Part shown: piece by piece, positions 1 through 55,366 of the stretch | Position numbering within the stretch: position 1 is the first letter of the stretch | How the letters are laid out: every line of letters begins with the position of its first letter | Virus record (IMG/VR): IMGVR_UViG_3300034061_002140 | Span: 1-55,366 of that record | Strand: one strand, 5' to 3' | DNA: 55,366 nt | Source of the DNA: a virus | The notes under the pieces: generated by a model | Seen by the model: only the letters and a program-made list of their open reading frames with translations | Told to the model about the DNA's origin: nothing | Databases searched by the model: none | Made by a program: the position numbers and the translations under genes

Positions 1-1
1 C

Positions 2-3000
2 CTACTGGATGAGGCTCTTGCTCTCGACAGGCAAGCGATGGATGCTTGGCAGAGGACCGGCAACGTCGAAGAGTTCAACCGCCTGAATGAGCGTTCGCGT
101 GATCTGCGCAGGCAGGCAACCGCCGCAGAGAAAGCTGCGGGCACAGAGTCCTACAAGTACCAGTCGTCTCACTGGGACCAACCCAACGTCCTCGCCCACA
201 TCCGCGTCAACGACCGCACCGATGCCGATGGCAGCAAGGTGCTGTTTGTCGAGGAGCTGCAGAGCGACTGGGGGCAGGAGGGGAAGAAGAGGGGGTTTGC
301 CAGCGACTCTGACATCAAGCCTGTGTCCCGCAAGGAATACGACGCCTACGTTGACAAGCTGCTCGACGACTACATAGAGAAGGCCGTTCAAGCTGGCGAA
401 GACAGGCAGGCTGCCGGCCGTCGCGGGATCAACATGCCTTTCCCTCAGATGGCGCAGGAGCTGGGTCGCGGCGATGAGTACGCGCGCATGCGAGCAGGGC
501 GCGACCTCGACATGAATGGCGGCAGCGACAAGATCCCCGCCGCCCCCTTCGTTACCAAGACCGAAGGCTGGCTGAACCTGGCGCTCAAGCGCGTGATGGT
601 CATGGCCGCAGAAGGCGGCTACGACAAGGTGGCGTTCGTCAACGGCGAGCAGTCGGCCGAGCGGTATGACCTGAGCAAGCAGGTCAACTACATCCAATGG
701 AATACCGGCTACAACGAGGGCCGCAAACTGATCACGCTGGAGCAGGTTGGCGGCAACGAGATTGGTCTGACAGTGCAGGACGGCGTTGTCGAGGACTCGT
801 CTATCGGTGCCGACGGGAAGCCTCTTGACGAGGTTCTTGGCAAAGAGATCGCCAACAAGATCCTCGCGCAGGACTCTGGCGATTTGCGCGGCCTCGACCT
901 CAAGGTCGGCGGCGAAGGCATGAAGACCTTCTACGACACCATCGTGCCCACGGCGCTGAAGAAGCTGCTGCCGAAGCTGGGTGGTGGGCAGGTAAGTGAG
1001 GTTGGCCTAAACAATCCGTACAGGCCAAGCTGGAGTGGCAGCACTCAAGCAGAGCTGGATGCAAACCGAGCTAAAGCCGAGGCTGAATACAGCCCAGTGC
1101 TACGGCAACCCGGCTTCGACATCACCCCCGCCATGCGCGAGCGCATCGCCGGCGGCGTGCCGATGTTCAGCAACCGCGTGCTGGAAGACCGCAGCGGCTT
1201 GTCTCGTCTCTCGTACCAAGGGTATGTCAAAGCTGAAGTCCCTCGTGTGCAAGCAGCCCGCAAGATGGCTGGCATCTTGGCCAAGTTGGATGCGGGCACG
1301 ATCACACCGCAAGAGTTTGAGCTGCAGGTTCGCGTGTTGTCCGAGAGGTTGGCCGAAGTGTCGGCCACCAAGGACGTCAACCGGATTGTCAGCGAGCGTG
1401 CGCGTGGTGCTGACATCGTGCGCGAGAAACTGATCGCCGCGCGTCGTCGCGGAGAGATTGAATCGGACACCGCAGAGTTTGCCCTGTGGGCGCTGCAGCA
1501 GAACCCAGCGCTTGCCGAAGGCCTTGGCATCTCGGTGCGCGCGCAACCCGAGCGCGGTGTGGCGGGCGACTACAACCCTGCTTCCGCAATCATGCGGGTG
1601 TTCAAAGGCTCCGCCAACACAGGCACAGCAGTCCACGAGATTCTGCACCACACCGAGCGCATGATGCCTGCCGAGGTGCAGACCGGCATCCGCAAGGAGT
1701 GGTCAAAGGCCTATTTCAAGGCGCTGAAGAACGCCGAGCCCAAGCAACGTGCGGCGCTTGAGAAGATGCTTGAGGCAATGGCTGGCGACCCGAAGGCTCA
1801 GACCGCTGTGCGCGATGCGTTTGCTGACGGCACGCTCAAGGCAGAGGTCCACTACCAACTGGTCAACCCCAGCGAGTTCTGGGCTGTCAACGCCACCGAC
1901 ATCCTGCGGCGTCGCTACGAGGCGGGCTCATGGATCGGCAAGGCCAAGCAGTGGCTGAGCGAGATGGTGCAGAAGGCCAGAAGCTTTGTGGGCATGCGCT
2001 CTAACGCGGCGGTCCTGCGTGCTTTGGATGGGGTGCTCAAGGGTGACGGCAAGTTCCAGGTGCGCAGCATGCTTGAGGACATGATGGGCACCTTTAACAG
2101 CCTTGTGCGCCCGGCGGTGCCTGAAGAAACTGAGATCAGCACGCAGAACCCGCAGGCGAAAAACCGCCTGTACAACCCCATCGACGACATGCTGTCGATC
2201 GATGAGGCGGCGGTGCGCGAAGCCATGGCGCTGCCGGTCAAGTCGGGCAAGACGCCGCTGGCTGAAAGCATTACCAACGCGATCTTGGGCTACGGCTTCG
2301 TCCCTCGTGACACGCCCCGCGACCAAGTCATCGAGGTCTACAAGCAGAGCATCGTCAGCAACCTGATGTACCTGTTTGGCAAGGTGCCCAGGAACATCCG
2401 CGAGCGCAGCAAGCTCTGGTACGACGGCGCGAACCGCATCGCCACCGACATGGGCAAGGCGTACGGCGTGAAGATGGAGCAGGTCGCCGGCATCATGGCG
2501 GCGATGTCCCCGCAGAAGGACTGGTTCCAGAACGTGTCCATGGCCGAGCGCGCCCTCGACATCCTGACGGGCCAGGGGAACGCGGCGTGGGACGACAACA
2601 TGCTCGCCTACGCCAAGAGCTACGTCGAAGAAACGCGTGACCGCAAGGAGCGTGAAAAGCGGCAGAAGGCCTACGACAGGGCGGAGCAGGTTGCCAAAGC
2701 CGGCACCGTCCTCGACGACATGAGCCCCGAAGATGCCGCGGTTTTCATCCGGTCCTACGACGAGGCCTACCACTCGCGCCAATACCGCATCGTCACCCCG
2801 GAAGGTGGGTTCGGCGACTTGGTGCGCAACGCCGACGGCACACCGTCCACGATGATGTGGTCGACCTACGACCCGATCGAAAAGTCGGTCAGCATCTTCC
2901 GCGACGGCAGCCGCAAGAACATCAGCGAGCAGCTCGGGGAAGAGCACAAGATCCGCTCGTTCTACAACAACATCGCCGCCCCCAACAGCCCGATCTCTCA

Positions 3001-7241: not shown

Positions 7242-8264
7242 ATGGCCGCGCCCAACCTCGGCCAAGGCATTGACCGGGGCAACTACCGGCGCCGCAACGG
7301 CATTACGCCGCCTGCGGTGCAGGGCAAGGCTGCGGGCGCCGTTGCGCAGACGGTCTTCTTTGAGGCGGTCACCGCCGGCGCGGTGACGCTTCAGCCGTCC
7401 AGGCTCGACAACGTCAATCAGTTCTTCGGCACGACCGTCGCGCCCGGCGCCGTCTCACTGGCCGCGCCGCTGCTTGCGAACAGCCAGACGTTCTACGCGC
7501 CCACGGTGTCCCTGGTCGGCGGCGCCACACAGACACTGACGGCCAGCCGCTACGACAATGCGCAGACGTTTTTCGCCGCAGCGGTAGCACCCGGCGCGGT
7601 GGCGCTGTCGCCCGTCAGGTACGACAGCGCTCAGACCTTCTACGGCCCGACCGTCACGCGGGGCGCCGTCACCCTTAGCGCCACGCGCTACGACAACGCT
7701 CAGAGCTTCCTTGCGCCTACGCTGACCACGGGCGCGGTCACGCTCACGGCGTCCAGGTTCGACAACGCACAGACGTTCTTTGCGCCCACGGTCGGGCGCG
7801 GTGCGGTCACCTTGTCGGCTGCACGGTACGACAACACGCAGGCGTTCTACAGCCCCAGCGTGGCGTCTGGTGCGGTCACGCTGGCGGCGCCGCTGCTGAC
7901 CAACGTCAACGCTTTCCCTGCGGCCACCGTCACGACTGGTGTCGTCACGCTGCAGCCTAGTCTGCTGATCAACGGCAGCCAGTTCTTCAGCGCGACGGTG
8001 GGTGCGCGCAGCGAGCCCTTCGGCCCGCCCGACTGGAAGTACCGGGTCAACACAGGCGGTGGGCCCATTGGGTCCATGGGCCCGTTCACGGTGCAGCGCA
8101 AGCGCAGGCGGCCACTGCCTGTCGACCAGCAGCAGGAAGACGCACAACCAACGGCCGACCCGTGGGACCAGCAGTTCCGCGAGATCGCCCTGGCCGAGGA
8201 CGCTGAAATCAGCGAGTTCCTCTTCGGCCTTGTCTCATCAGGAGTTCTGGATGGCCACGTATAG
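7242..8264 (+). CDS. Tandem 23-residue-repeat virion/fibre protein
   Basis: 340 residues. Residues about 40-255 are nine tandem units, mostly 23 residues (69 nt); the first has 22 and the third 26. The unit pattern is F(F/Y)xPTVxxGAVTLxxxRyDNaQ, with near-invariant GAVTL and DN.Q positions. This regular beta-strand/turn pattern suggests a fibre or solenoid. The C-terminal 85 residues are unrelated, with a basic patch KRKRRRP and an acidic helical tail. The last 14 bp overlap the start of the next gene. A structural role is inferred. Confidence 0.8.
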   Translation: MAAPNLGQGIDRGNYRRRNGITPPAVQGKAAGAVAQTVFFEAVTAGAVTLQPSRLDNVNQFFGTTVAPGAVSLAAPLLANSQTFYAPTVSLVGGATQTLTASRYDNAQTFFAAAVAPGAVALSPVRYDSAQTFYGPTVTRGAVTLSATRYDNAQSFLAPTLTTGAVTLTASRFDNAQTFFAPTVGRGAVTLSAARYDNTQAFYSPSVASGAVTLAAPLLTNVNAFPAATVTTGVVTLQPSLLINGSQFFSATVGARSEPFGPPDWKYRVNTGGGPIGSMGPFTVQRKRRRPLPVDQQQEDAQPTADPWDQQFREIALAEDAEISEFLFGLVSSGVLDGHV

Positions 8265-11208
8265 CAAGTGCATCACCACGACCGAGCTGTTCAGCCCCAA
8301 GGATGTGGCCGAGCTCGAGGGCGAGATCAAGCGCATCGGTGGCAACGGCAACGCCGCGGCCATTGCGGCAGCCAAGGCCATCATCGAGCGGGCGCAGCAG
8401 ATGCGCACCCTGATCATGGATGCGGCGGGGATGGTGCAAGAGGCACCAGCGACTGAGGCCGCCACCCCCGTCGAGGAAGAGGACATCACCGCCAGCAACC
8501 GCCGCGTGCCCATCGTCGGGCGCAACACCACGCTGCCCGCGACGACCGGCTTCGACGCTGTCCGCATCAAGCTGCAGGACGATGCGCTGCGCATGAGGCG
8601 CGTGCTCGACGCGGTCAAGGCCAAGGGCGGCAAGGTCACCGAGGCGCAGAACTTCTACGACGCCAACACCCTGATGCCAGGCCGCATCCAGGCTGCGGTG
8701 GAGGACTTCCGCATCGACGTGCTGCGGCCGATGACCGAGCGGGCGATCAAGGCCGACATTGAGATGGACGAGCTGGCCATCTACGCCTACGCCAAGCACG
8801 CCAAGGAGCGCAACGCCTACATCGCCAGCATCAACCCGCGCCTGCCTGACGGTGGCTCTGGCATGACCAACGCAGACGCCGCCGCGATCATGCAGCGGGT
8901 GGCCCAGTCGGGCAAGCAGGCCGACTACGATGCGCTGCACGCTGACCTGATGTCGATCACGGCCACCACCCGCCAGCTCATGCTGAACGAGGGCCTGATC
9001 ACGCAGGACGAGTTCGACGCCATGGACGGCGCCTACGAGTTCTACATCCCCCTGCGGGGCTGGGAGAACGTCGTGGAGGAGACCGGCGTGGCCCGGCCAG
9101 GGGTGGGCCGCGGCGTCAACATCCGGGGCCAGGAGACGATCCGCGCCCTGGGCCGCACCTCGCGTGCGGGCGGGCTGATCGAGAACGCCATCCGCGACTA
9201 CGAGCGCGTGATCCAGCGCATCGAGAAGAACGACGTGGGCAAGGTGCTGCTGGACTTCGTGCTGTCCAACCCCGACCCCGACCTGTGGGGCGTGGACGTG
9301 GTCAAGAGCAAGCCCACCTTCAACAAGGCGCAGGGCGTCGTGCAGTTCACGTCCAACGTCGAGAAGGGCGAGGACACCATCGGCGTAAAGGTGGGCGGCA
9401 ATCAGGTCTACATCAAGCTGGCCGACCCCGAGCTCGCTCGGGCGCTGCGCCAGGCCTGGAGGGACGAGACGAGCGGAATTGAGCGGGCCACCATGGCGGT
9501 GACGGGTGTCTGGAACAACTGGATGCGCGCCGTGCTGACCCGCTACAACCCGGCCTTCGCGGCGATCAACATCCCCCGCGACGCTCTGTGGTCGGGTTCC
9601 ATGGCCGCGCTGGACGAGCTGGGGGCCAAGGGCCTGGCGCGCTACACGCTCAACTTCGGCAAGGCACTGGTGGCCTCCACCAAGGCTGAGATGGGCCTCA
9701 AGGCAGACCCGCTGTACGAAGAGTTCCGCACGGCCGGCGGCATCACGGGCGGCTTCTACATGCGCTCGGTCGAGGACATCAAGAAGGATCTGCAGCGCGA
9801 CCTGATGATGGCCGGGCCGAAGTCCAAGGCCTACCCGCTGAAGGCGGCGCGGTTCGTCATGAAGGCGCTTGAGTTCCTGGGCTCGGCCAGCGAAAACGCC
9901 ACCCGGTTCGCGCTCTACACCGCCGCCAAGGATGTGGGAAAGACCCGCATCCAGGCGGCCTTGCTGGCCAAGAACGGCACCACCAACTTCAACCGCAAGG
10001 GCGAGTGGGGCGGGGCGCTGAACAACCTGTACCTGTTCTTCAACGCCGGCGTACAGGGCACCACGCAACTGGCCAAGGTTGTGAAGAACCCTGCGGTGTT
10101 GTCGACTCTGGCGGGCGTGGCTGGGGTGAGCGCGATGCTGGCCCTGTACGGCGCGTCTGCGGGCGGCAGCGACGACGACGGTGAAGCCTACTGGGACAAG
10201 GTGCCGGGCTACGAGAAGGAGCGCAACCTGATCATCATGCTGACCCCAGGCGATCCGCTGGGAGACGGCATCAACCGCGTGGGCAAGCGCGGTCGGTTCA
10301 TCAAGATCCCCGTGCAGTACGGCTTCAACATCTTCCCCAATCTGGGCTACATGACGGCCGACGTCTGGCGCAACAGCCAGGACAAGTCCCGCGGCGTCAC
10401 GCCCACCAAGGCGGCGCTGCACATGACATCGGTGGTCTTCGGGTCAGTCAACCCGTTCGGTGGATCCGTCGACGTCACCGACGGCGTGCAGGTGCTGCTG
10501 GCTGCGATGCCTACGCTGTTCGACCTGCCGGTTCAGCTTATCACCGAGCGCAACACCTTCGGTGCGCCGGCCTCTCCGTTCAAATCGCCTTACGACAACA
10601 AGCCAGACTCGGAGCGCATGTTCCCCTCATTGCGGGGCACGGGAGCTCAGAAGGTTGCCGAGAAGATCAACGAGCTGGGCGGCGGCAACGCAGGCAAGGC
10701 TGGCGAGATTGCTGGCATCGAAACCTCAATCGCACCCGGCACGATCAAGACCTTGATTGCCGGCACCACTGGCGGCCTGGGAACCTTTGCGGATCAGATG
10801 GTCGACGCAATCATCGCCATGAGCAGCGACGACGAGAACCTGCGCGCCAAGAGCATGCCGATTCTGAACCGCTTCTACGGTGAAGTGGACCAAGACGCCA
10901 CGATCAAGATCGCCTCAGACCGCCGTCGAGAGGTTGACAAGGTCGATGATGAAGTGAAGCAGCAGAAGAAGGACGACATCGAAGCCGTGCTCAATCCCGA
11001 AGAGAAGCGTCTGATGACATTGGCCACTTTGCAGGAGCAGCAGCGAAAGCAGATGTCCGCGCTGCGCAAGGAGGAGATGGGCGTCATCAAGAACAAGGAG
11101 CTCACTGAGGCCGAGAAGAAGGTCAAGCGCAAAGAGATTCAAGTAAAGCGCGACCGCTTGGCCATTGAGTTCAACGATGCCTACAGGAAGAGCTACAGCG
11201 AGAAGTAA
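8251..11208 (+). CDS. Large polyvalent virion (probable ejection) protein
   Basis: 985 residues from the ATG at 8251, preceded by AGGAG at 6 nt; the frame is open further upstream but that is less likely coding. The block around residue 430 (TRYNPAFAAINIPRDALWSG, then a helical stretch) resembles the 'large polyvalent protein associated' LPD38-type module I know from giant phage proteins; this match is by eye. A hydrophobic stretch near residues 613-637 could be a membrane segment. The C-terminal 130 residues are highly charged coiled coil (EEMGVIKNKELTEAEKK). It probably travels in the capsid and enters the cell with DNA. Confidence 0.75.
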   Translation: MATYSKCITTTELFSPKDVAELEGEIKRIGGNGNAAAIAAAKAIIERAQQMRTLIMDAAGMVQEAPATEAATPVEEEDITASNRRVPIVGRNTTLPATTGFDAVRIKLQDDALRMRRVLDAVKAKGGKVTEAQNFYDANTLMPGRIQAAVEDFRIDVLRPMTERAIKADIEMDELAIYAYAKHAKERNAYIASINPRLPDGGSGMTNADAAAIMQRVAQSGKQADYDALHADLMSITATTRQLMLNEGLITQDEFDAMDGAYEFYIPLRGWENVVEETGVARPGVGRGVNIRGQETIRALGRTSRAGGLIENAIRDYERVIQRIEKNDVGKVLLDFVLSNPDPDLWGVDVVKSKPTFNKAQGVVQFTSNVEKGEDTIGVKVGGNQVYIKLADPELARALRQAWRDETSGIERATMAVTGVWNNWMRAVLTRYNPAFAAINIPRDALWSGSMAALDELGAKGLARYTLNFGKALVASTKAEMGLKADPLYEEFRTAGGITGGFYMRSVEDIKKDLQRDLMMAGPKSKAYPLKAARFVMKALEFLGSASENATRFALYTAAKDVGKTRIQAALLAKNGTTNFNRKGEWGGALNNLYLFFNAGVQGTTQLAKVVKNPAVLSTLAGVAGVSAMLALYGASAGGSDDDGEAYWDKVPGYEKERNLIIMLTPGDPLGDGINRVGKRGRFIKIPVQYGFNIFPNLGYMTADVWRNSQDKSRGVTPTKAALHMTSVVFGSVNPFGGSVDVTDGVQVLLAAMPTLFDLPVQLITERNTFGAPASPFKSPYDNKPDSERMFPSLRGTGAQKVAEKINELGGGNAGKAGEIAGIETSIAPGTIKTLIAGTTGGLGTFADQMVDAIIAMSSDDENLRAKSMPILNRFYGEVDQDATIKIASDRRREVDKVDDEVKQQKKDDIEAVLNPEEKRLMTLATLQEQQRKQMSALRKEEMGVIKNKELTEAEKKVKRKEIQVKRDRLAIEFNDAYRKSYSEK

Positions 11209-43626: not shown

Positions 43627-45513
43627 ATGCCAAGCAACGACTACTACGACCACACCACGTACCCGGGCCCCAACGCGCCAGGCTCTTCGGCCGCCCTGCG
43701 AGCCGAGCTCGACTCCATTGAGCAGGGCTTCCTGAAGCTGCCGACGCTGACTGGCAACGGCAACAAGGTGGTGGTGATCAATGCCGGCGGCACGGCCCTG
43801 ACAAGCACGCTGTCGCTGTCTGGCCTGACGCTGAACAGCACGACGATCGGCGCGACCACGCCGGCCTCGGGTTCGTTCACCACGCTGTCGGCCAGCGGAG
43901 CGGCCAACCTGGGCAGCTCGGTCACGATTGCTGGCGGCACGATCAACGGCACGCAGATCGGCAACACGACGCCCTCAAGCGGCGCGTTCACGACGCTGTC
44001 GGCGAGCTCTGGCCTGACAGGCAACGTGACGGGCAACGTCACGGGCAACCTGACTGGAAACGTCACTGCAAGCAGCGGCACCTCCACGTTCAACAACGTC
44101 ACGGTCAACGGCACGCTGGACATGGCCAGTGCGACCGTGGGCACGATCTCCGGGCTGCAGACGCCGAGCGCCAGCGACGATGCGGCCAACAAGGACTACG
44201 TCGACACCCAGCGCGACACGCGCCTGGCGCTGGCCGGCGGCACCATGAGCGGTGCCATCGCCATGGGGTCCAACAAGATCACCGGCCTGGGCACACCGAC
44301 GTCATCGGCCGACGCCACGACCAAGACCTACGTTGACACGCAGGACGCGCTGCGGCTGGCGCTGACGGGCGGCACGATGTCGGGCGCCATCGCGATGGGC
44401 ACGAACGCCATCACGGGTATGGCAGACCCGACCAACGCGCAGGATGCCGCGACCAAGAACTACATCGACACGCTTTTCGGTAGCACGGCCTCTGCAGCGG
44501 CCTCAGCCTCTGCGGCCGCGACCAGCGCGACCAATGCGGCCAACAGCGCCACCACGGCGTCAGGGCATGCGTCCGCAGCGTCCACAAGCGCCAACGATGC
44601 GGCGGCCAGCTACGACGCCTTTGACGACCGCTACCTGGGCGCCAAGGCCAGCGACCCCACGCTCGACAACGACGGCAACGCGCTGCTGACTGGGGCGATC
44701 TACTGGAACACGACGTCCAGCATCATGAAGGTGTGGACGGGGTCTGCGTGGATCGCGACCTACCTTCCGGCCTCAGGCTACCTGCCGCTGTCTGGCGGCA
44801 CGATGACGGGCAACCTGACGGTCAACACCGGGGCCGACTCTCGCGTCCTGCTGCAGAGCAGTGGCACGACGCAGGGCCAGTTCCAGACCACTGCAAGCCA
44901 AGTGCGCGTGGCGTCCAACAACACGCTGCCACTGGTGCTGTCTACCAACGGTGTGGACCGTTTGACGTTTGACGACGTCGGCAACGTCACCTTTGGTTCA
45001 GTAACGGCAAGCGGCGCCTACACCTTCCGCGGCACGAACGCTGCGGACATGGTGGTGCTGGAGTCTCTTGACACATCGGCCTCTGCCGCGCCGGATCTGG
45101 TGCTCTATCGCAACTCGGCGAGCCCTGCGGTTGCAGACCAGCTCGGCGTCATCATCTGGCGCGGCAAGGACAGCGGAGCCGCTGACCAGCAGTACGCCCG
45201 GGTCGGCGCGGAGATTACAGACCCGACTGCTGGATCCGAGGATGCCGACTTGTGGTTTGAGACCACCGGGAACGGCGCAGCCGCCGAGCGTTTTCGGATT
45301 GGCTCGCTAGGTCAGCTCGGCATCGGTGGAGCTACCTACGGCACCAGCGGCCAGGCTCTGGTGTCTGGGGGCGGTTCTGCCGCCCCGACGTGGGCTGATG
45401 TCCTCACGGCCACAGGCACGGAGACGCTGACGAACAAGACTATCGACGGCGCCAACAACACCATCACAAACGTGACCCCCCACTTTCTACTCATGGCTAC
45501 AGGAGTGATCTGA
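43627..45513 (+). CDS. Tail fibre protein
   Basis: 628 residues. The N-terminus (PNAPGSSAALRAELDSIEQG) is a typical virion anchor. Low-complexity beta repeats follow (TGNVTGNVTGNLTGNV; LAGGTMSGAIAMG twice; KNYIDTLF), then an Ala/Ser-rich stalk and a C-terminal domain (QALVSGGGSAAPTWADVLTA, TNKTIDGANNTITNV) seen in many phage fibres. It probably carries receptor-binding or adhesin-holding function and works with the glycine-rich adhesin downstream. Confidence 0.85.
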   Translation: MPSNDYYDHTTYPGPNAPGSSAALRAELDSIEQGFLKLPTLTGNGNKVVVINAGGTALTSTLSLSGLTLNSTTIGATTPASGSFTTLSASGAANLGSSVTIAGGTINGTQIGNTTPSSGAFTTLSASSGLTGNVTGNVTGNLTGNVTASSGTSTFNNVTVNGTLDMASATVGTISGLQTPSASDDAANKDYVDTQRDTRLALAGGTMSGAIAMGSNKITGLGTPTSSADATTKTYVDTQDALRLALTGGTMSGAIAMGTNAITGMADPTNAQDAATKNYIDTLFGSTASAAASASAAATSATNAANSATTASGHASAASTSANDAAASYDAFDDRYLGAKASDPTLDNDGNALLTGAIYWNTTSSIMKVWTGSAWIATYLPASGYLPLSGGTMTGNLTVNTGADSRVLLQSSGTTQGQFQTTASQVRVASNNTLPLVLSTNGVDRLTFDDVGNVTFGSVTASGAYTFRGTNAADMVVLESLDTSASAAPDLVLYRNSASPAVADQLGVIIWRGKDSGAADQQYARVGAEITDPTAGSEDADLWFETTGNGAAAERFRIGSLGQLGIGGATYGTSGQALVSGGGSAAPTWADVLTATGTETLTNKTIDGANNTITNVTPHFLLMATGVI

Positions 45514-45514
45514 C

Positions 45515-45913
45515 ATGGCGGCTCAACCAGCTTACGCAAACGTCCCCAAGGCTGCGGTAACAGCAATCTCTACCGCAAACACCAATCGGGATGGCACCGG
45601 AACACTCGGCACTGTTTTTACGGCCGGGACCTCCGGCTCAAGAATAGACCGGATTGTTGTCCAGGCAACAGGAACGACGACCGCAGGAATGGTCCGCTTG
45701 TTCTTGCACAACGGCACGACGGCATTCTTGTATGACGAGGTGCCGGTAAGCGCTACGACACCAAGCGCAACAGTGCAGGCTTTTGCTGCAACGCTTGAAG
45801 CGTTCTCTGCTCCAAGGCTCATGCCTCTGGTCCTGCAGACTGGTTGGAGCTTGAGGGCCAGCACGCACAACGCGGAGTCATTCAACATTGTTGCAGTTGG
45901 AGGTGACCTGTAA
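45515..45913 (+). CDS. Small beta-rich appendage protein (132 aa)
   Basis: 132 residues. TNRDGTGTLGTVFTAGTSGS, then RIDRIVVQATGTTTAGMVRL, then an alternating beta strand pattern. It is next to the tail fibre and overlaps the glycine-rich gene by one base. Proteins with this layout accompany tail fibres in some phages. The role (fibre tip, chaperone or capsid-tail accessory) is unclear. Confidence 0.65.
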   Translation: MAAQPAYANVPKAAVTAISTANTNRDGTGTLGTVFTAGTSGSRIDRIVVQATGTTTAGMVRLFLHNGTTAFLYDEVPVSATTPSATVQAFAATLEAFSAPRLMPLVLQTGWSLRASTHNAESFNIVAVGGDL

Positions 45914-46953
45914 TGAACAATGGATTGTTGCCCATGATGGGCTTTCCCAAAGCCGACGGACTGTACTCGTCTGAAGATAAGGCGATTGCTCCTGCAGTTT
46001 TTGGTTCAGGGCAGTTTCAGATCTTTACTGCTAATGACACTTTTGTGGTGCCAATAGGTGTTTCTCGCATTCGAGTGACGGTAATTGGAGCGGGCGGCGG
46101 CGGCGGCTCTGGTGGAAACGGCGGAGCATCAACGGGCGGCGGCGGCGGCGGATGTGCGATCAGCGTTGTTGAAGTTTCTCGCGGCCAATCGTTCTCCGTC
46201 ACAGTCGGTACTGGCGGCGCAGGCGGGGCATCCGCAGCCGGATCAGCAGGGGGAACTTCTTCTTTTGGCGGCCTGCTCAGCGCAACTGGCGGCGGCGGCG
46301 GAAGCTCAAGCGGTACGGCAGCAACGGGCGGCACTGGTAGCGGCGGCAATTTTGCCAACTTCACGGGCGGCGGTTCTGGAGCGACTTCTGGAAGTTACGC
46401 TGTTTCGGGCGGAGGGTCGAGCGCGACAATTTATGGCAACGGAAAAGCATCTGGCGGCACAACCACAGCCAATTCAGGCTCGGGTGGCGCAAGTATTTTC
46501 TACTCTAGTGTTTCTTACACCAACGTACCATGCGGCGCCGGGACCGGAGGTCCCAATGTTGTAAACACTACTAGCACTGTTAATAATTTTGGTGGTCCTG
46601 GATTTCTTGGTGCTGCGGGCCCGGCGGCGGTGTCTACTGGAGCTGCAAATGGCGGAAGCGCGGGTACGCTTGTGCTTTCTAACACTTTCTGGGGAGCTTT
46701 GGTGGGATCTGGAGGCGGCTCCAATGGTAATGGTGGGGGTGGTCCGGGCGGGCCGGGTGCTGGTGGCGCCGGAACTTTAACAGCAAGTACTGGCGGAGCG
46801 GGTGGCATTTTTGGTGGCGGAGGGTCTGCTTCGGGAAGCTCCAGTCTCGCCACAGGTGGCGTGGGAGGCCCCGGTGGCGGAGGCGGCGCCGGCATGGGCG
46901 TTGGTGGTGTCGGCGGCGCAGGCGGTGTGGGCCTTGTCTTTGTGGAGTACTGA
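45913..46953 (+). CDS. Glycine-rich tail adhesin
   Basis: 346 residues. A short N-terminal beta region (FTANDTFVVPIGVSRIRVTV) leads to long glycine runs (GAGGGGGSGGNGGASTGGG and many GGGG stretches) to the C-terminus, ending VGGVGGAGGVGLVFVEY. Glycine-rich adhesins of this kind cap tail fibres of T2/S16-like phages and form polyglycine II-like lattices. The DNA is less GC-biased in the first part. It probably makes the last contact with the host receptor. Confidence 0.75.
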   Translation: MNNGLLPMMGFPKADGLYSSEDKAIAPAVFGSGQFQIFTANDTFVVPIGVSRIRVTVIGAGGGGGSGGNGGASTGGGGGGCAISVVEVSRGQSFSVTVGTGGAGGASAAGSAGGTSSFGGLLSATGGGGGSSSGTAATGGTGSGGNFANFTGGGSGATSGSYAVSGGGSSATIYGNGKASGGTTTANSGSGGASIFYSSVSYTNVPCGAGTGGPNVVNTTSTVNNFGGPGFLGAAGPAAVSTGAANGGSAGTLVLSNTFWGALVGSGGGSNGNGGGGPGGPGAGGAGTLTASTGGAGGIFGGGGSASGSSSLATGGVGGPGGGGGAGMGVGGVGGAGGVGLVFVEY

Positions 46954-47470: not shown

Positions 47471-47833
47471 ATGATCGCCGACCTCATCGCCGTCCTGTTC
47501 CTGAGTCGCGACATCGCGCACCGGGAGCATCTGTCGACCACCAGCTTCTCTCAGCACATGGCGCTCGGTGAGTTCTACCCGGGTGTGATCGATCTGGCTG
47601 ACAAGCTGGCCGAGGCCTACCAGGGCCGGCACGGCCTGATCGGCACCATCCCCCTGGCCGAGAACGACTTCAAGTCCGGCGGCGCGGTGGGCATCCTGTC
47701 CCAGCACCTGATGTGGATCGAGAACAACCGCTACAAGGCCGCGGCCAAGACAGATTCGACCCTGCAGAACATCATCGACGAGGTGATCGCGCTGTACCTC
47801 AGCACGCTCTACAAGCTCAAGCACTTGAAGTAA
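47471..47833 (+). CDS. DUF5856-like protein (120 aa)
   Basis: 120 residues, helical. LFLSRDIAHREHLSTTSFSQ, then HMALGEFYPGVIDLADKLAE and AVGILSQHLMWIENNRYKAA. The pattern of histidine/glutamate-containing helices resembles the ferritin/Dps-like DUF5856 phage family, matched by eye. It may bind metal. It lies between tail-fibre and coiled-coil membrane genes without an obvious link to either. Confidence 0.65.
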   Translation: MIADLIAVLFLSRDIAHREHLSTTSFSQHMALGEFYPGVIDLADKLAEAYQGRHGLIGTIPLAENDFKSGGAVGILSQHLMWIENNRYKAAAKTDSTLQNIIDEVIALYLSTLYKLKHLK

Positions 47834-48279: not shown

Positions 48280-51087
48280 ATGGCCACGATGGTTCCCAAC
48301 AACCCCTTCGACGTCCAGGCGCCAGCGCCTGCACCTGCGCCGAATCAGGGTCTGATCCAGCAGGCGGCCGCATTCAATCCGCAGACGCGCCAAGTTGACC
48401 GTGCCACGGAGACGACGGCCGGGCAGGTCGAGTCCCTGCTGTCGAAGAACAACCCGCTGATGCAGCGCGCCCGCACGATGGCGCTGCAGCAGATGAACCA
48501 GCGGGGCCTGGTCAACAGCTCCATGGCCATCGGCGCCTCGCAGGCCGCGATGATCGACCGCATCACGCCGATCGCGCAGGCCGACGCGCAGACCTACAGC
48601 AACCAGGCGCTGGCCAACCAGAGCACGGTCAACCAGGCCGGCCAGTTCAATGCGAGCGAGCAGAACAAGTTCTCCTTGCAGAAGTCGGAGCAGCAGTTCA
48701 CGTCGGGCGAAAACGCAACCCAGCGTCAGTTCCAGACGGGCGAGCGTGTTGGGTCTCAGGCGTTCCAGTCTCAGGAGGCTGCCAACCAGCGTGCGTTCCA
48801 GTCTGCGCAGTCGGAGCTGGATCGGGCCACGCAGGTGTCTCTGGCCGACAAGAGCATTGAGGCGACACGAGCGCTTGAGGCTGCTCGTCAGAACTTCCAG
48901 GCTGCGCAGAGCGCGATAGACCGCGACCAGCAGATGCGGGTGTTGGACGCTCAGCAGACATTCCAGTCTGCGCAGGCCAGCCTGGACCGCGCCACGCAAG
49001 TCTCATTGGCCGACAAGTCGATTGCCGCACAGGCCAGCCTTGCGCAGGCGCAGCAGGCTTTCCAGTCCGCGCAGAATCAGTTGGACCGCAGCCAACAGAT
49101 GGCGGTTCTGGGGGCGCAGCAGAAGTTCCAGAAGGCCGAGGCTGAACTGGATCGTGCGCAGCAAGTGGCGCTGGCCGACAAGAGCATCGAGGCCAACAAG
49201 GCGCTGGAGACGGCACGGCAGAACTTCACTGCCGCGCAGTCCGAACTTGATCGGACTCAGCAGGCCACGCTGCAGACGCAGCAACAAGAGTTCACCAGGA
49301 CCGAGAACGCAGCAGGCCGCACGTTTGAGTCTGGGCAGCGGGAGCTTGACCGCACCCAGCAGGCGGATCTTGCCTCGAAAGCCCAGACCTTCCAGGCTAC
49401 TCAGAACGAGCAGGATCGGGCGCAGCAGCTCATGCTGGCGGACAAGAACATCACCGCTCAGCAAGCTCTGGAGAAGGCGCGGCAGGAGTTCCAGGGCGGT
49501 GAGTCTGCGCTGGATCGGACGCAGCAGCGAGAGCTGCAGACGCAACAGCAGGACTTCACCAGAGGCGAGAACGCCGCCAACAGGACTTTTGAGCAGGGTC
49601 AGCGAGAGCTTGATCGCACCCAGCAAGCCGACTTGGCGTCCAAGGCGCAAACATTCCAGGCTTCGCAGAACGAGAAGGATCGTGCTCAGCAACTGATGCT
49701 CGCTGACAAGAACATCACGGCTCAGCAGGCACTTGAGACGGCGCGGCAGGAGTTCCAACGAGGCGAGTCTGCGCTTGACCGCACGCAGCAGGCGTCCCTT
49801 GCTCAAGCGGCGCAGACCTTCCAAGCATCACAGGCGGAGAAGGACCGCGCTCAGCAGTTGATGCTCACGGACAAGACAATCGACGCCAACAAGGCGCTGG
49901 AGCAGGCAAGACAGGAGTTTCAGCGCGGCGAGAGCGCGCTCGACCGCACTCAGCAACAGGCCTTGGAGACCGCACGCCAGACATTCCAGGCTTCTCAAGC
50001 GGAAATGGATCGTGCCCAGCAACTGATGTTGACTGACAGGACCATCACTGCGAACAAGGCGCTGGAGACTGCACGGCAGGAGTTCCAGCGGGGCGAGAGC
50101 GCGCTTGACCGCACGCAGCAAGCAAACCTGGCCTCGGCGGCGCAGACTTTCCAGGCCACCCAGAACGAGAAAGACCGTGCTCAGCAGATCATGCTGACCG
50201 ACAAAAACATCACGGCGCAACAAGCACTCGAGCAGTCACGTCAAGAGTTCCAGCGTGGCGAAGGAATCATCGCCCGGCAGTTTGAGTCTGGCCAGCGTCA
50301 ACTTGATCGCGATCAGCAGTCGTCTCTGGCAAGCGCTGCTCAGACTTTCCAGGCTACGCAAAACGAAAAGGACCGAGCTCAGCAGCTCATGCTGACAGAC
50401 AGGACCATTTCAGCCAACAAGGCGCTTGAAACCGCGCGGCAGGAATTCCAGCGAGGCGAGAACATCGCAGACCGCACCCAGCAAACCACTCTCCAGACCA
50501 ACCAGCAGACCTTCCAGTCTGGCCAGAACGCGCTGGACCGCACGCAGCAGCAGACCCTGCAGACAGCCCAGCAGTCGTTCCAGCAGACACAGAACCAGCT
50601 TGATCGCAACCACCAGGAGTCGATGACTCGGCTGTCGAACAGCCTCAGCCAAGCCAACGTCTCGGGCACCTTCGCGGCCAACATCACTGCGAACACCAGC
50701 TCTGCGATCAACGCGATCTTGGGTGACGGCAACCTGACGGCAGAGGCCAAGCGCGGTGCGATCGACAACATCATTGCCAACGCCAACAGCACGCTGCAGT
50801 GGGGCTCGTCGTTCTACAACACGCCGCTGCCGGCGGTGACTGCGCCTGGGTCTACCGGGATCATCGGCGGGGTGATCAATCCTGCGCCGGCGGCTCCTGC
50901 GCCAGCGCCTGCAGCACCTGCGCCCGCACCTGCCGCTCCCGCGCCTGCGCCCGCACCGGCGCCCGCACCGTCTCCTGCGCCGGCACCCGCACCGGTGCAG
51001 CCCGAGCCTCGCGACCAGTGGGGCCGCACGGTCGATGACCCGATGTTCGGCCAAGACCCGAACAACTACGGCAACAACACCTACTGA
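48280..51087 (+). CDS. Extreme 11-residue-repeat coiled-coil virion protein
   Basis: 935 residues. From about residue 147 to 780 it is built of 11-residue units, for example ALDRTQQASLA / QAAQTFQASQA / EKDRAQQLMLA / DKNITAQQALE / TARQEFQRGES, which form a 55-residue super-repeat. Repeats of 11 residues (hendecads) predict a right-handed or straight coiled coil that would exceed 90 nm if fully extended. The N-terminal ~145 residues are helical and glutamine-rich; the C-terminus is Pro/Ala-rich (NPAPAAPAPAPAAPAP). Located at the start of the ejection-protein block. Function not known; long helical virion or ejection protein inferred. Confidence 0.85.
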   Translation: MATMVPNNPFDVQAPAPAPAPNQGLIQQAAAFNPQTRQVDRATETTAGQVESLLSKNNPLMQRARTMALQQMNQRGLVNSSMAIGASQAAMIDRITPIAQADAQTYSNQALANQSTVNQAGQFNASEQNKFSLQKSEQQFTSGENATQRQFQTGERVGSQAFQSQEAANQRAFQSAQSELDRATQVSLADKSIEATRALEAARQNFQAAQSAIDRDQQMRVLDAQQTFQSAQASLDRATQVSLADKSIAAQASLAQAQQAFQSAQNQLDRSQQMAVLGAQQKFQKAEAELDRAQQVALADKSIEANKALETARQNFTAAQSELDRTQQATLQTQQQEFTRTENAAGRTFESGQRELDRTQQADLASKAQTFQATQNEQDRAQQLMLADKNITAQQALEKARQEFQGGESALDRTQQRELQTQQQDFTRGENAANRTFEQGQRELDRTQQADLASKAQTFQASQNEKDRAQQLMLADKNITAQQALETARQEFQRGESALDRTQQASLAQAAQTFQASQAEKDRAQQLMLTDKTIDANKALEQARQEFQRGESALDRTQQQALETARQTFQASQAEMDRAQQLMLTDRTITANKALETARQEFQRGESALDRTQQANLASAAQTFQATQNEKDRAQQIMLTDKNITAQQALEQSRQEFQRGEGIIARQFESGQRQLDRDQQSSLASAAQTFQATQNEKDRAQQLMLTDRTISANKALETARQEFQRGENIADRTQQTTLQTNQQTFQSGQNALDRTQQQTLQTAQQSFQQTQNQLDRNHQESMTRLSNSLSQANVSGTFAANITANTSSAINAILGDGNLTAEAKRGAIDNIIANANSTLQWGSSFYNTPLPAVTAPGSTGIIGGVINPAPAAPAPAPAAPAPAPAAPAPAPAPAPAPSPAPAPAPVQPEPRDQWGRTVDDPMFGQDPNNYGNNTY
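48718..50620 (+). repeat. 165-bp (5 x 33 bp) tandem coding repeats
   Basis: The AGGAGTTCC-type segment that encodes QEFQRGE occurs at 49748, 49913, 50078 and 50243, exactly 165 bp apart. The next copy is 198 bp on (50441) and the previous one 264 bp before (49484). All distances are multiples of 33 bp, showing growth and loss by units of eleven codons. Nucleotide identity is moderate, so the repeats are not all recent. Confidence 0.85.
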
Positions 51088-51089
51088 CC

Positions 51090-51533
51090 ATGCAGGTCCG
51101 CAAGGCCACCTACAAGGACATCGCCGCGGTCGTGGACATCGCGGTGGAGTCGGTCATGCGCGATCCCCTGCCGGTGACCGTGGACCGCGAGGCGATGCGC
51201 GAGATGGCCATGCAGTGCCTGAACCCGGCGCACTTCATGTGGGTGGGCGAGGACGACAGCGGCAACGTGGTGGCCGCGGTGGCGGCGATGACGCAGCGCT
51301 CGTTCTGGTATCGCGGGCTGCAGTGCTCGGTGCTGCTGTACTACACGCGCCTGCCGGGCCTGGGCGCGGCGCTGCTGCGCGAGTTCGCCCGGTGGGTGAA
51401 GTCCCGCACGGGAGTCAAGGTCGCGGTGCTGGAGCTCGAGCCCAGCACTGATGTGCGGCTGCTCCGGTTTCTGCGCCGCATCGGGTTCGTGCGCAAGTCG
51501 ATCAACATGAGCTACGTCAGGAGCGCAGCATGA
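51090..51533 (+). CDS. GNAT-fold N-acetyltransferase-like protein
   Basis: 147 residues. MQVRKATYKDIAAVVDIAVE start, central HFMWVGEDDSGNVVAAVAAM, and a LPGLGAALLREFARWVKSRT segment in the place of the acetyl-CoA-binding motif A, although the usual RxxGxG/A is not perfect. C-terminal LRFLRRIGFVRKSINMSY is typical of GNATs. It lies inside the ejection-protein block, so it may be carried in the particle or act on virion/host proteins. The substrate cannot be seen. Confidence 0.75.
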   Translation: MQVRKATYKDIAAVVDIAVESVMRDPLPVTVDREAMREMAMQCLNPAHFMWVGEDDSGNVVAAVAAMTQRSFWYRGLQCSVLLYYTRLPGLGAALLREFARWVKSRTGVKVAVLELEPSTDVRLLRFLRRIGFVRKSINMSYVRSAA

Positions 51534-52267
51534 GCAAGGTAGTTCGCGGCATTGGCCGAGCCGTCGGCAAGGTCGTCAAGGGCGTGGTCAACACCGTCAA
51601 GAAGGTGGCCAAGTCGAAGTTCGGCAAGATCCTGATCGGGGCTGCGCTGGTGTACTTCGGTGGCGCGGCGCTGATGGGTGGCATTGGCGGCGCGTCTGCT
51701 GGCGGCCTATCGGGTGCGCTGACTGGGGCTTCAAAAGCCGTGAGCGGTGCATGGGGTGCCCTCACCAGCGGCAGCGTGAGTGCCATGGGCAGCGCCTTTA
51801 CGGGCTCCTACGGCGCTGGTCAGGCGGCTGTCACCGGCTTGGGCGGTAGCGTTGCCGGCACAGGCCTGTCTGCTGCAGCAACAGGCGGCGGCACAGGCGC
51901 TGGCTTGAGCGTGCCAACAGCAGGGTCAGCGACCGGCGCTGTGGGCGGCAGCAGCCTAGTCCCTGCAGCAGCACCGAGTTACTCCCTCGCCGGAGGAGCC
52001 GCCGGCAGTGGCGCTGGCCTGTCGACGGCCGGGATGAACATCGCCCCAGGCCTGGGTGGCGCAGGAGCCGGCGCCAGCAAGGGCTTCATCGCCAGCGCCA
52101 TGTCCAGTCCCTACTTTGCGCCGGCTGTAGTCACGTCCGGCACGCAGCTCGTCGGCGGCGTCATGCAAGGTGTTGGCGCGCGGCAGGAGCAGAAGCGCCA
52201 AGAGCAACTGACGGCTGAGCAGAAGGCTGCCTACAACCGCAACATCGCCAACTTCCGCTACGCCTGA
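51530..52267 (+). CDS. Gly/Ala-rich internal virion protein
   Basis: 245 residues. A basic amphipathic start (VGKVVKGVVNTVKKVAKSKF) leads to a hydrophobic segment (GKILIGAALVYFGGAALMGG), and most of the rest is Gly/Ala/Ser-rich with possible membrane-interacting stretches. A helical C-terminus (RQEQKRQEQLTAEQKAAYNR) ends the protein. Such composition is common in small podovirus ejection proteins that insert into membranes. It overlaps the GNAT gene by 4 bp. Confidence 0.75.
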   Translation: MSKVVRGIGRAVGKVVKGVVNTVKKVAKSKFGKILIGAALVYFGGAALMGGIGGASAGGLSGALTGASKAVSGAWGALTSGSVSAMGSAFTGSYGAGQAAVTGLGGSVAGTGLSAAATGGGTGAGLSVPTAGSATGAVGGSSLVPAAAPSYSLAGGAAGSGAGLSTAGMNIAPGLGGAGAGASKGFIASAMSSPYFAPAVVTSGTQLVGGVMQGVGARQEQKRQEQLTAEQKAAYNRNIANFRYA

Positions 52268-52278
52268 AAGGAACGACC

Positions 52279-52854
52279 ATGGCAGGACTGATCAAAGACC
52301 AGATGGCGCCGTCGTCGGACGTGGACGACGCCATGCAGCAACCGCCCGTCACCACGCCAGCTTCAGGGCCGCAGGAAATGAATGCCCAGCAGCAGGGCCA
52401 GGAGCCCGCTGGTGAGGGCGTTGACCCTGAGTCGGACCCTGGGTATCAGCAGGCCGCTCAATTCGCCATGGAGGCCCTGTACAAGAACAAAGCAGCCAAG
52501 GACATTGCCAAGGCACTCAAGACTGCGCGTGACCCGGTGGAGGCGCTGGCAAACACCGCCTACGAGATCATCACCATCATCGACGAGCGCACCGACGGCG
52601 CGGTTCCTGACGAGATGCTGGCCGCCTTCGCGACCTTCGTGCTTGAGGAGATCTCTGAGATCGCCGAGGCGGCCAACGTCCCTCTGCAGCCGTCCGACGT
52701 GGCGATGGCCCTGAAGCAGATGATCCTGCGCTTCTTGGGCGAGCAGGGCGTGGACACGACGCAACTGCAGCAGGCCATGGACCAGGTCGACCCTGAGGAG
52801 TTCAACCGCATGGCTGAGGGCGAGGAGCCTGAGCTTGAGGAGATGCCAGCATGA
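52279..52854 (+). CDS. Acidic helical virion-associated protein (191 aa)
   Basis: 191 residues. A disordered acidic N-terminus (QQQGQEPAGEGVDPESDPGY) precedes a helical domain (QFAMEALYKNKAAKDIAKAL, then TAYEIITIIDERTDGAVPDE and MALKQMILRFLGEQGVDTTQ) and an acidic C-terminus (EEPELEEMPA). GAAAGGAACG precedes the ATG. It overlaps the next gene by 4 bp. Similar acidic helical proteins sit among podovirus internal proteins. Function inferred from place. Confidence 0.7.
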   Translation: MAGLIKDQMAPSSDVDDAMQQPPVTTPASGPQEMNAQQQGQEPAGEGVDPESDPGYQQAAQFAMEALYKNKAAKDIAKALKTARDPVEALANTAYEIITIIDERTDGAVPDEMLAAFATFVLEEISEIAEAANVPLQPSDVAMALKQMILRFLGEQGVDTTQLQQAMDQVDPEEFNRMAEGEEPELEEMPA

Positions 52855-53837
52855 GCGGACTGATCTGGGCCGGGATCGGCAAAGGCATCGCAGATGCCGG
52901 GACCACCTTTGGCAGCTACATGCTGAAGGACATCGAGGACCAGCGCAGACGCGAAGACGAGGAGCGGCGCGAGGCCAACGCCATCAAGCGGGCCGAGGAG
53001 GCTGAAAGGATCCGCGCCGAGCGCGAGGAAAAGAAGGCCGAGACGCTGAAGCAGCGCGTGACCACGGAGACCGCGCAGGTTGAGCAGCGCGCCACGCAGA
53101 TGGGGACCGAGCGCCGCACTGCGCGCTTGGACTCAGACGCTGGCAAGCTGTCCGCGTCCAGCATGGCGGAGGACCGAGAGGGCCTGGCGATTGACAAGGA
53201 GAAGATGCTCGAGCTTCTCCGAAATGATCCAGCGCTTCGCGAGAGCTACCGCAAGTCGGGCCTGATCGAGGGGGCCGCCGAGTCCACCCGCGACCCGCGG
53301 ATGATCGCTGCCGAGGACCGCGTGACTGCGGCCATGGGCATCGGCGCGCACTCGTCTGTGCTGGACGCTTACACGAAAGCCAAGGCGGACACGCTGCGCG
53401 AGGTGGCCGAGGAGAACAGAGAGAAGCAGCGCGCCGCCGCGCAGGCTGCGACAGATCTCAGGCTGGATCAGCAAGGCAGGAAGACGGATGCTCTGGTGGA
53501 GTACCTGGGAAGAAAGGGCGGCGTGGCTGAGCGCAACGCCGAGACCGCAGAACAGCGCGAGGCGCGGCTGGCAAAGGGCGGTGGCAAGGCGGCGAGCGGC
53601 GGTGGTCAGCCTGGCCTGAGGGGCATGACACCGGAGCGCCTTTCAGCGGAAGGCGAGACGCTGCGCAAGGCGGCAGACAAAGCGACCGGAGAGCGCAAGC
53701 AGAGGCTTGAAGCTCAGCTTGACGAGGTGTTTGCCGAGATGAAACGTCGGAGAGAGTCGGGCGGCGCGTCACCGACCGCGGCCCCGGCTCCCCGGCCATC
53801 TTCGACGACGAAGAACTACAGCAATCTCTGGAAGTAA
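52851..53837 (+). CDS. Coiled-coil internal virion protein (328 aa)
   Basis: 328 residues. N-terminal amphipathic segment (GLIWAGIGKGIADAGTTFGS), then a very charged helix (IEDQRRREDEERREANAIKR, EAERIRAEREEKKAETLKQR) and later Glu/Arg/Lys-rich stretches, with a glycine hinge (GGGKAASGGGQPGLRG). It fits podovirus ejection proteins that form long helical assemblies. It directly precedes the giant protein. No named family. Confidence 0.75.
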   Translation: MSGLIWAGIGKGIADAGTTFGSYMLKDIEDQRRREDEERREANAIKRAEEAERIRAEREEKKAETLKQRVTTETAQVEQRATQMGTERRTARLDSDAGKLSASSMAEDREGLAIDKEKMLELLRNDPALRESYRKSGLIEGAAESTRDPRMIAAEDRVTAAMGIGAHSSVLDAYTKAKADTLREVAEENREKQRAAAQAATDLRLDQQGRKTDALVEYLGRKGGVAERNAETAEQREARLAKGGGKAASGGGQPGLRGMTPERLSAEGETLRKAADKATGERKQRLEAQLDEVFAEMKRRRESGGASPTAAPAPRPSSTTKNYSNLWK

Positions 53838-53840
53838 AGC

Positions 53841-55366
53841 ATGGCAAAGAAGTGGTCTGACGTAGCGGCAAGCGCCGCATTCCAGGCCCTCTCGTTCGAG
53901 GAACAAGAGGAAGCGCGCCGCCAGTACTTTGAGCAGATCATTGCTCCTCAGGTGCCTGAGGAAGACATTTCGCTCGCGCGAGACCAGTTCTTTGCCGACA
54001 CGACACGCAGCGCCGGCGGTGGCCGCGGATTCATCAACCCGCCGATGGCCGGGCAGCCGCAGCCGACCTACCCCAAGCTGCGCCCTGCGCCTGCACCCGC
54101 GACGGACTACTCCGACATGGCGACGGCCATGCAGGGTACGCCGATGTCTCGGCCGCAGCCCGCTGCACCGGCGCCAGCGCCAGCGAAACCGCCGCCCTAC
54201 AAGAACCGACTCGAGGCCCTTGACGACGCCGTCAACTTGGTCGAGGAGGGGGCAGACTTCAAGAAGGTGGCCCAGGCCTTCTCGCAGATTGGCATCGGCG
54301 AGGGCGACATCATGTCGCACGGCAAGGCGCGCAAGTCGCCGATGTTCGATCTGCCGGAGATGTCTCGCAAGCAGATCGACCAGTACGTCAAGCCGCAACC
54401 GCAGCCGATGCCGGAGCCGACGGGCACCATCACTGCGGTCGAGCCAACGGCGCTGCAAGAGATCGGTAACACGTTCAAGCGCGGCTCGCTGCAGGCCGGC
54501 CAGATCCTGGACAACTTGTCCTTCAAGGCTGGCATCTTTGACGCCAGCACAACCGCCGAGCGGATGCGCGAGCGCAACCGCCAGATGGGTGCGGCAGCGC
54601 CTTCGGGCGATGTGGCCGAGGGCCTCGAGCGCCTGCAGGCTGCCAACGAGACGGGCGACTACGGGACCGTCGCACGCGAGGTGCTGGACCCCAGCAACTG
54701 GAAGGCCCTGGCTGCGCTGGTGGCCGAGTCCGCGGTGGCATCCTCGCCGGCCATTGCCGCAACCGTTGGCGGCACCCTGGTGGCCGGACCCTTCGGTGCG
54801 GCCGGCGCCACTGCGCTGACGTCGTTCACGATGGAGTACGGCGCCGCGGTAGGCGACGTGCTGGAGAAGCGCAAGGTCAACCTCGCTGATCCTGTTGCGG
54901 TGCGCCGCACGCTTGAGGACCCCGAGTTCATTGCTGAGACGCGCGAGCGCGGGCTCAAGCGCGGCGTCCCGATCGCGGCGTTCGACGCGCTGTCGGCTGG
55001 CTTTGCCGGCCGCTTCGTCAAGACCGTCGAGCGCGCTGTTGAGTCTGGCGCCATCGCGGCCAAGAGCGCGCCCCGTGCATTCACTGTTGCCGGCCTGAAG
55101 GAAGGCGGCCTGCAGGTCGGAGCTGGCATGGCGGGCGAGGCAACGGGCCAGGTTGCCACCGGCGAGAACAAGCCACTGGACGTGCTGATCGAGGGCCTGG
55201 CTGAGCTGCCTGGCGGCGTCGCTGAAGTTGGCGGCAACCTCTATTCGTCGCGCAACCGCACGCCCGAGGGGATGATCGCGAGCGCGATCAGTGGTGCTCC
55301 AGGGTATAAGCAACGTGATGTCGACGCGCGTGCGGCCTCCGAGTTCGCTGCACCGCTGCCGACAAT
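53841..55366 (+). CDS. Giant virion protein, N-terminal part (runs off the right end)
   Basis: 508 complete codons from the ATG at 53841 with no stop before the end of the window. The frame matches base 2 at the left end (the last two bases AT plus the first base C make one codon), so together they would encode about 2277 residues. N-terminal tract: FEQIIAPQVPEEDISLARDQ, a Pro/Ala-rich linker, a helical module (ALDDAVNLVEEGADFKKVAQ), then membrane-like stretches (GTLVAGPFGAAGATALTSFT). This is the usual style of giant podovirus internal proteins. Confidence 0.75.
   Translation, partial: MAKKWSDVAASAAFQALSFEEQEEARRQYFEQIIAPQVPEEDISLARDQFFADTTRSAGGGRGFINPPMAGQPQPTYPKLRPAPAPATDYSDMATAMQGTPMSRPQPAAPAPAPAKPPPYKNRLEALDDAVNLVEEGADFKKVAQAFSQIGIGEGDIMSHGKARKSPMFDLPEMSRKQIDQYVKPQPQPMPEPTGTITAVEPTALQEIGNTFKRGSLQAGQILDNLSFKAGIFDASTTAERMRERNRQMGAAAPSGDVAEGLERLQAANETGDYGTVAREVLDPSNWKALAALVAESAVASSPAIAATVGGTLVAGPFGAAGATALTSFTMEYGAAVGDVLEKRKVNLADPVAVRRTLEDPEFIAETRERGLKRGVPIAAFDALSAGFAGRFVKTVERAVESGAIAAKSAPRAFTVAGLKEGGLQVGAGMAGEATGQVATGENKPLDVLIEGLAELPGGVAEVGGNLYSSRNRTPEGMIASAISGAPGYKQRDVDARAASEFAAPLPT

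Follow-up and report, generated by a model that had tools for sequence, protein, structure and literature searches.

The hendecad gene and its neighbourhood

The window analysed here is an entire IMG/VR record (IMGVR_UViG_3300034061_002140; 55,366 nucleotides). Its portal, terminase and coat match those of podovirus-type phages, its head and tail gene order resembles that of HMO-2011, and the portal, the gene order and the cassette described below are as in HMO-2011 and StenR_269, consistent with the podovirus origin proposed in a preliminary description of this DNA. Joined end to end, the record gives an uninterrupted reading frame across a giant gene, and it has no end repeat; the record is therefore probably a complete, circularly permuted genome cut within that gene. 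The gene under study is a plus-strand ORF located shortly before the giant gene, and the features of this region are as follows:

48280..51087, + strand: hendecad protein gene, 935 aa, without cysteine
48280..48399, + strand: N-terminal leader (residues 1-40), low confidence or disordered in the AF2 model
48400..48642, + strand: conserved N-domain (residues 41-121), a helical hairpin with the turn RGLVNSSM
48643..50655, + strand: hendecad array (residues 122-792), 61 units of 33 bp, core columns 1/4/8/11
48841..48873, + strand: first D-type hendecad, LADKSIEATRA, the first of nine super-repeat marks
49006, 49171, 49435, 49699, 49864, 50029, 50194 and 50392, + strand: starts of the other eight D-type marks
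50656..50829, + strand: conserved C-domain (residues 793-850), two short helices
50830..51084, + strand: Pro/Ala-rich C-terminal tail, which in relatives varies in length, not by steps of 11
51090..51533, + strand: GNAT acetyltransferase, the gene right after the hendecad gene in the cassette
51530..52267, + strand: g245, with an N-terminal hydrophobic segment, cysteine-free
52279..52854, + strand: g191, cassette gene
52851..53837, + strand: g328, cassette gene
53841..55366, + strand: N-terminal part of the giant protein (2277 aa, 1 Cys), continuing in frame into 1-5308

The start of the hendecad protein (MAT..xNPFD) is common to most relatives, the RGL of the N-domain hairpin, the signature of the family, lies at residue 75, and the C-domain follows the pattern ..AINAI..DGNL..EAK..AI.N.I.N.....LQW... 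The tail-fibre genes are separate and located upstream (43627-46953). Between them and the hendecad gene, a small protein (47471-47833) matches DUF5856 and a PHROG of starvation-inducible transcriptional regulators (2.2e-19).

The hendecad gene opens a conserved cassette that ends in the giant protein, which bears out the link to particle and DNA-delivery proteins suggested earlier. GNAT is found downstream in 52 of the 66 relatives with enough flanking sequence and g245 in 40 of 60, and in MW202426, Pun_Y3 and StenR_269 the family gene is located upstream of a giant or putative vRNAP gene. StenR_269 carries the putative vRNAP in the place of the giant, and its family gene lies directly 3' of the tip attachment gene. 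The giant protein matches a DNA-ejection-protein PHROG at its N-terminus and an endolysin PHROG further along, while g245 gives a very weak, partial match to PHROG 805 (the T7 gp14 family) that profile comparison did not confirm. Taken together, the hendecad protein, g245, g191, g328 and the giant contain one cysteine in 3976 residues; cysteine avoidance is also seen in the major capsid protein and a tail fibre. In its position, conserved among relatives, the cassette resembles the T7 set of small, middle and giant internal proteins, but no homology was detected between T7 gp13-gp16 and profiles of the neighbouring genes, nor between the family and T7 gp14 when profiles from 6 sequences were compared. 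When we speak of an ejection cassette, we therefore do so on the basis of position and content and not of proven homology. Beyond the giant gene, a 1068-aa ORF (8002-11208) carries an LPD38 large polyvalent protein domain (E 2.6e-22) and may be injected too.

An initial scan yielded 14 close relatives, and a search with an N-domain profile produced 378 matches in viral contigs, 80 of which were retained, as well as 13 in bacterial genomes, including Acidovorax, Chromohalobacter, Shewanella and Arsukibacterium. The members in several Acidovorax genomes (L101-L104 and L110) are likely prophages and could indicate cultured hosts. We define the family by an RGL..SSM hairpin, hendecads and the C-domain; the window protein has RGLxNSSM with flanking helices, and GNAT and the cassette genes follow downstream. 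Among annotated phages, MW202426, Pun_Y3, Bas95, HTVC033P, StenR_269 and ctYwJ313 encode a member, that of the E. coli phage (Bas95_0022) having a short array. HMO-2011 gp25 (E 9.8e-17) and MQM1 gp18 (E 3.5e-13), both annotated only as hypothetical, belong to the family by N-domain profile and 11-residue periodicity, although their hendecads are fewer and more degenerate than those of the window protein. In one relative (L009, 6001-9365) the array is split over two overlapping ORFs of 801 and 552 aa, because either the phage itself carries a frameshift or the assembly is wrong here. No PHROG family was matched by the window protein, 24 short relatives or 9 distant ones, and Pfam contained no family for the window protein or the 24 short relatives, with a lone stray match at E 0.0097. 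A sequence search of solved structures produced low-complexity or chance matches only; Foldseek found only generic helices in the PDB, none better than E 1, and a single clear match in a viral library, to an uncharacterised phage protein (1.6e-14). In the literature consulted, we found no paper devoted to podovirus proteins of this hendecad kind, nor any proteomic analysis of the virion of a family member.

Hendecad periodicity and predicted structure

Residues 122-792 align as 61 rows of 11 in a single register with zero indels. The preliminary description had placed about 58 units at 48718-50620; it was right about the hendecads and too short in their extent, the true array being longer at both ends. 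The 11-residue period and the 55-residue super-repeat that it reported are both evident in the residue autocorrelation of the window protein, which is strongest at lag 55 (z 25.7), followed by lags 22 (13.8), 33 (11.6) and 11 (7.0). Each super-repeat comprises five row types (roughly xxxLDRxQQxx, LxxAxQTFQAx, QxExDRAQQLM, L(A,T)DKxIxAxxA and LExARQEFQRG). The L[AT]D[KR] marks start at residues 188, 243, 298, 386, 474, 529, 584, 639 and 705, so that they follow one another in steps of 55, 55, 88, 88, 55, 55, 55 and 66 aa, i.e. exactly the 165-bp spacing with 198- and 264-bp variants noted before. The copies of the long DNA repeat families D1-D4 are likewise 66, 99, 165, 198, 264, 330 and 363 bp apart, all multiples of 33 bp. 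In the hydrophobicity power spectrum a peak of 304 stands at 3.667 residues, or exactly 11/3, against a largest value of about 63 in 500 shuffles; a purely 7-residue pattern, which would have spoken against hendecads, is not seen, the power being 0.8 at 3.5 residues and 7.4 at 3.6. With 61 units in register and this 11/3 peak, the very long hendecad helix proposed earlier is well founded.

The chemistry of the columns, tallied over 42 in-phase relatives, is that of an amphipathic helix. Column 1 is L (40%) or Q (36%), column 4 is L/A, column 8 is F (39%) or Q (27%) and column 11 is A/G; column 9 is Q in 57%, and columns 5 and 6 are Q/D and Q/R. A Gln-rich stripe adjoins a hydrophobic stripe along the array. 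By convention the core positions of a hendecad are a, d, e and h, which columns 1/4/8/11 fit if column 8 is taken as a, and the array thus combines the 11/3 hydrophobic period with the core expected of a hendecad coiled coil. Proline is absent from the 671-residue array of the window protein and occurs 3 times in 19,382 residues of family arrays. An amphipathic helix with an 11-residue period could in principle also bind membranes in the manner of apolipoproteins or synucleins. Such binders normally have basic flanks. Here, Gln interrupts the hydrophobic stripe (27-36% in columns 1 and 8), Lys is scarce and the net charge is -11 over 671 residues, all of which makes membrane binding a very improbable function of the array.

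AF2 predicts, for a 335-aa relative (24-row alignment), one unbroken helix of 183 residues (87-269) with a pLDDT of about 80-92 across most of the array. The monomer model of the 935-aa window protein (25 rows) has low confidence (mean pLDDT 65.1) and shows helix almost throughout residues 82-846; wherever this helix breaks inside the array, it does so at one of the nine L[AT]DK units. These breaks may be hinges or may be artefacts of the model, since the helix of the short relative runs unbroken through its L[AT]DK unit and the arrays stay in phase on both sides of such units. A straight helix of 61 units would measure about 100 nm at 1.5 A per residue, and the family would range from about 21 to 140 nm.

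Given the low confidence and the break at each L[AT]DK, the chain may form a segmented bundle that folds back on itself. Taken further, this suggests a protein that stays in the head as a core or packing rod, its hinged 55-residue super-repeats folding into a compact helical bundle that organises the ejection proteins or the DNA and forms no conduit. The location of the gene in the ejection cassette and the large differences in length tolerated among relatives would suit such a scaffold as well. Helix-breaking hinges, however, would not need a strict 11-residue phase across them, and the continuity of the helix through the same unit in the short relative likewise argues for something other than an internal scaffold, a role that we hold to be unlikely, though a serious rival.

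Array length changes in whole units

For 49 distinct proteins in which the C-domain could be recognised, we took as length the distance between the RGL of the N-domain and the point where the C-domain starts. This distance is 709 residues in the window protein, or 5 mod 11, and 42 of the 49 have this remainder; the arrays span 13 to 85 units. When each length is counted once to reduce the effect of relatedness, 29 of 36 distinct lengths are in phase (p ~3e-23). Among the moduli from 5 to 19, 11 alone has an effect on the distance, and the lengths of the N-leader and C-tail are scattered over residues mod 11. The earlier expectation that relatives differ by whole 33-bp units therefore holds as a strong, not absolute, rule, as it fails in 7 of the 49. 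One exception (L031) carries a 15-residue duplication, two (L002 and L003) have in common that a net 4 residues are missing where the array starts, two (L061 and L085) have perfect rows to the end of the array and shift only at the C-junction, and one (L100) is a remote relative. The remaining one, L007, has an insert of about 70 non-repeat residues (residues ~580-650, nt 7738-7950), the sole such insert among the close relatives. The loss of 4 residues from 11 leaves a heptad, 15 residues make a pentadecad, and a continuous coiled coil tolerates both; the L031 duplication and the L002/L003 loss are coiled-coil-compatible steps.

Comparisons of near-identical phages show the growth by whole 33-bp units that had been proposed. 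L032 and L035 are identical in the N-domain, the C-domain and the downstream DNA and differ by one clean block of 165 bp, although the compared sequences are metagenome assemblies and a 31-bp direct repeat at this junction calls for caution. L002 and L003, with 99.1% identity in the array, are separated by a 198-bp step; for L013 and L014 the differences amount to 66+165+165 bp, and between the window and L004 they are 66, 99, 99 and 33 bp. Furthermore, L003 and L010 have downstream DNA that is 99.8% identical and arrays that are 370 residues apart in length; array length is therefore labile.

Recombination between repeats yields whole units automatically, and the quantisation could accordingly be a purely mutational outcome of slippage of tandem units, with no selection on phase; the 31-bp repeat at the L032/L035 junction speaks for this. 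However, across arrays of 13-85 units, indels other than whole units have seldom become fixed, while the flanking linkers vary freely. The units are also diverged at the DNA level: the longest exact repeat within the window's array is about 20 bp, and the unit added in L035 is only 59% and 74% identical to its neighbours. Array dN/dS is 0.08-0.25 in seven pairs, and the protein is therefore under purifying selection. We regard a mutational explanation without selection on phase as improbable.

Possible roles in DNA delivery

The protein is probably a modular rod that is carried in the phage particle or injected from it, a role that we infer from the evidence above. As to what the rod does, we tentatively favour, at slightly less than even chance, a protein of the ejection cassette that works as a coiled-coil rod or tube, because of the likeness to phiX174 H and because the channels of T7 and the N4-like phage DEV are made from internal proteins. 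As the first protein of the cassette, it would consist of an N-terminal hairpin, one very long, nearly proline-free hendecad helix and a small conserved C-domain. Copies would associate laterally via their hydrophobic stripes, giving a coiled-coil rod or tube that is straight or has a slight right-handed twist. They would be packaged, leave the head alongside the other cassette proteins and line or extend the path of the DNA into the cell, like the phiX174 H tube or the T7 and DEV periplasmic tunnels. The L[AT]DK units, placed every 55-88 residues, may serve as hinges that let a 100-nm chain fold within a smaller head. Unit number would shift through recombination between repeats, and the surviving steps would mostly retain the 11-residue phase because other steps break the coiled-coil register.

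Length counts against part of this. Long members exceed the Gram-negative envelope several-fold and array length is very variable. The needle or fixed tube across the periplasm that had been put forward for this protein fares poorly in view of straight lengths of about 100 nm for a continuous helix here and about 21-140 nm in relatives, even between phages with near-identical flanks; a periplasmic tube in particular is weakened because the lengths are large, labile and match no envelope.

A tail needle or external fibre would be a variable-length, probably trimeric, hendecad coil that closes the nozzle or stands out from the tail until contact, when it would be lost or driven inward. The P22 needle gp26 is a trimeric coil with a distal tip and belongs to a separate family, and its gene directly precedes the ejection genes, an arrangement that, like the location of the StenR_269 gene directly after that for tip attachment, would suit a needle here. 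The gp26-type needles of P22-like phages share with the present family that they are coiled-coil virion proteins whose length differs among phages (cited in PMC10925440). However, both terminal domains of our proteins are conserved family-wide with no variable receptor-binding knob seen, and the tail fibres are encoded by separate genes. A straight rod of 100-140 nm should also stand out on particles, and we found no particle image of a member that shows one, though StenR_269, the sole described isolate, carries only a short member. A needle is in our judgement not likely, though a serious rival.

The principle of the hendecad fold and the idea of ejected conduits are already known. What is new, relative to the libraries searched, is a widespread and unlisted family whose arrays, strictly locked in phase, reach 85 hendecads. 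It is common among environmental podoviruses, the abundant marine HMO-2011 group included, and yet the members tested match no PHROG family and, convincingly, no Pfam family. With lengths so strictly quantised, the family offers a clean experiment of nature on the register of coiled coils. On a broader and rather doubtful proposal, this would be a widespread podovirus DNA-delivery family in which the number of phase-locked 33-bp modules (13-85 units, ~21-140 nm) sets the length of a rod or tube and recombination resizes it in one step. If so, a phage lineage could lengthen or shorten its delivery device through a single recombination event; should these proteins be ejected as rods or tubes, they would rank with the longest regular hendecad helices that viruses are known to have and would put to a direct test how a phage with a short tail spans the envelope. 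Bas95_0022, in an E. coli phage, opens the way to a first laboratory test.

Among known systems, T7 and the N4-like phage DEV make periplasmic channels from internal proteins, and T7 gp14/gp15/gp16 and DEV gp73/gp72/gp71 share with the present genes the layout of a multi-protein podovirus cassette ending in a giant. Those ejection proteins are helical and form a trans-envelope channel, but a hendecad array is not among the features given in the portions of these reports drawn on here (PMC8954989, PMC10925440). In addition, T7 gp15, at about 20 nm, is far shorter than the longest arrays of the family. The nearest known system in kind is phiX174 H. It differs in having just three hendecads followed by heptads and in coming from an ssDNA microvirus, and homology to the family is not detectable. 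When H hendecads were scored against the family profile, the best register set the lumen-facing Q1/Q8 on the Q-rich columns 9/5, which is better than shuffled sequence (p 0.0005) but not clearly better than a column-permuted control (p = 0.074). H assembles as a decamer into a tube; QKELTKMQLDN is one of its hendecads, and Gln, Asn and Arg residues line the lumen. It has in common with the family long helices, Gln-rich 11,3 hendecads and a hydrophobic stripe beside a Gln stripe, and is itself an ejected conduit protein (PMC7354561).
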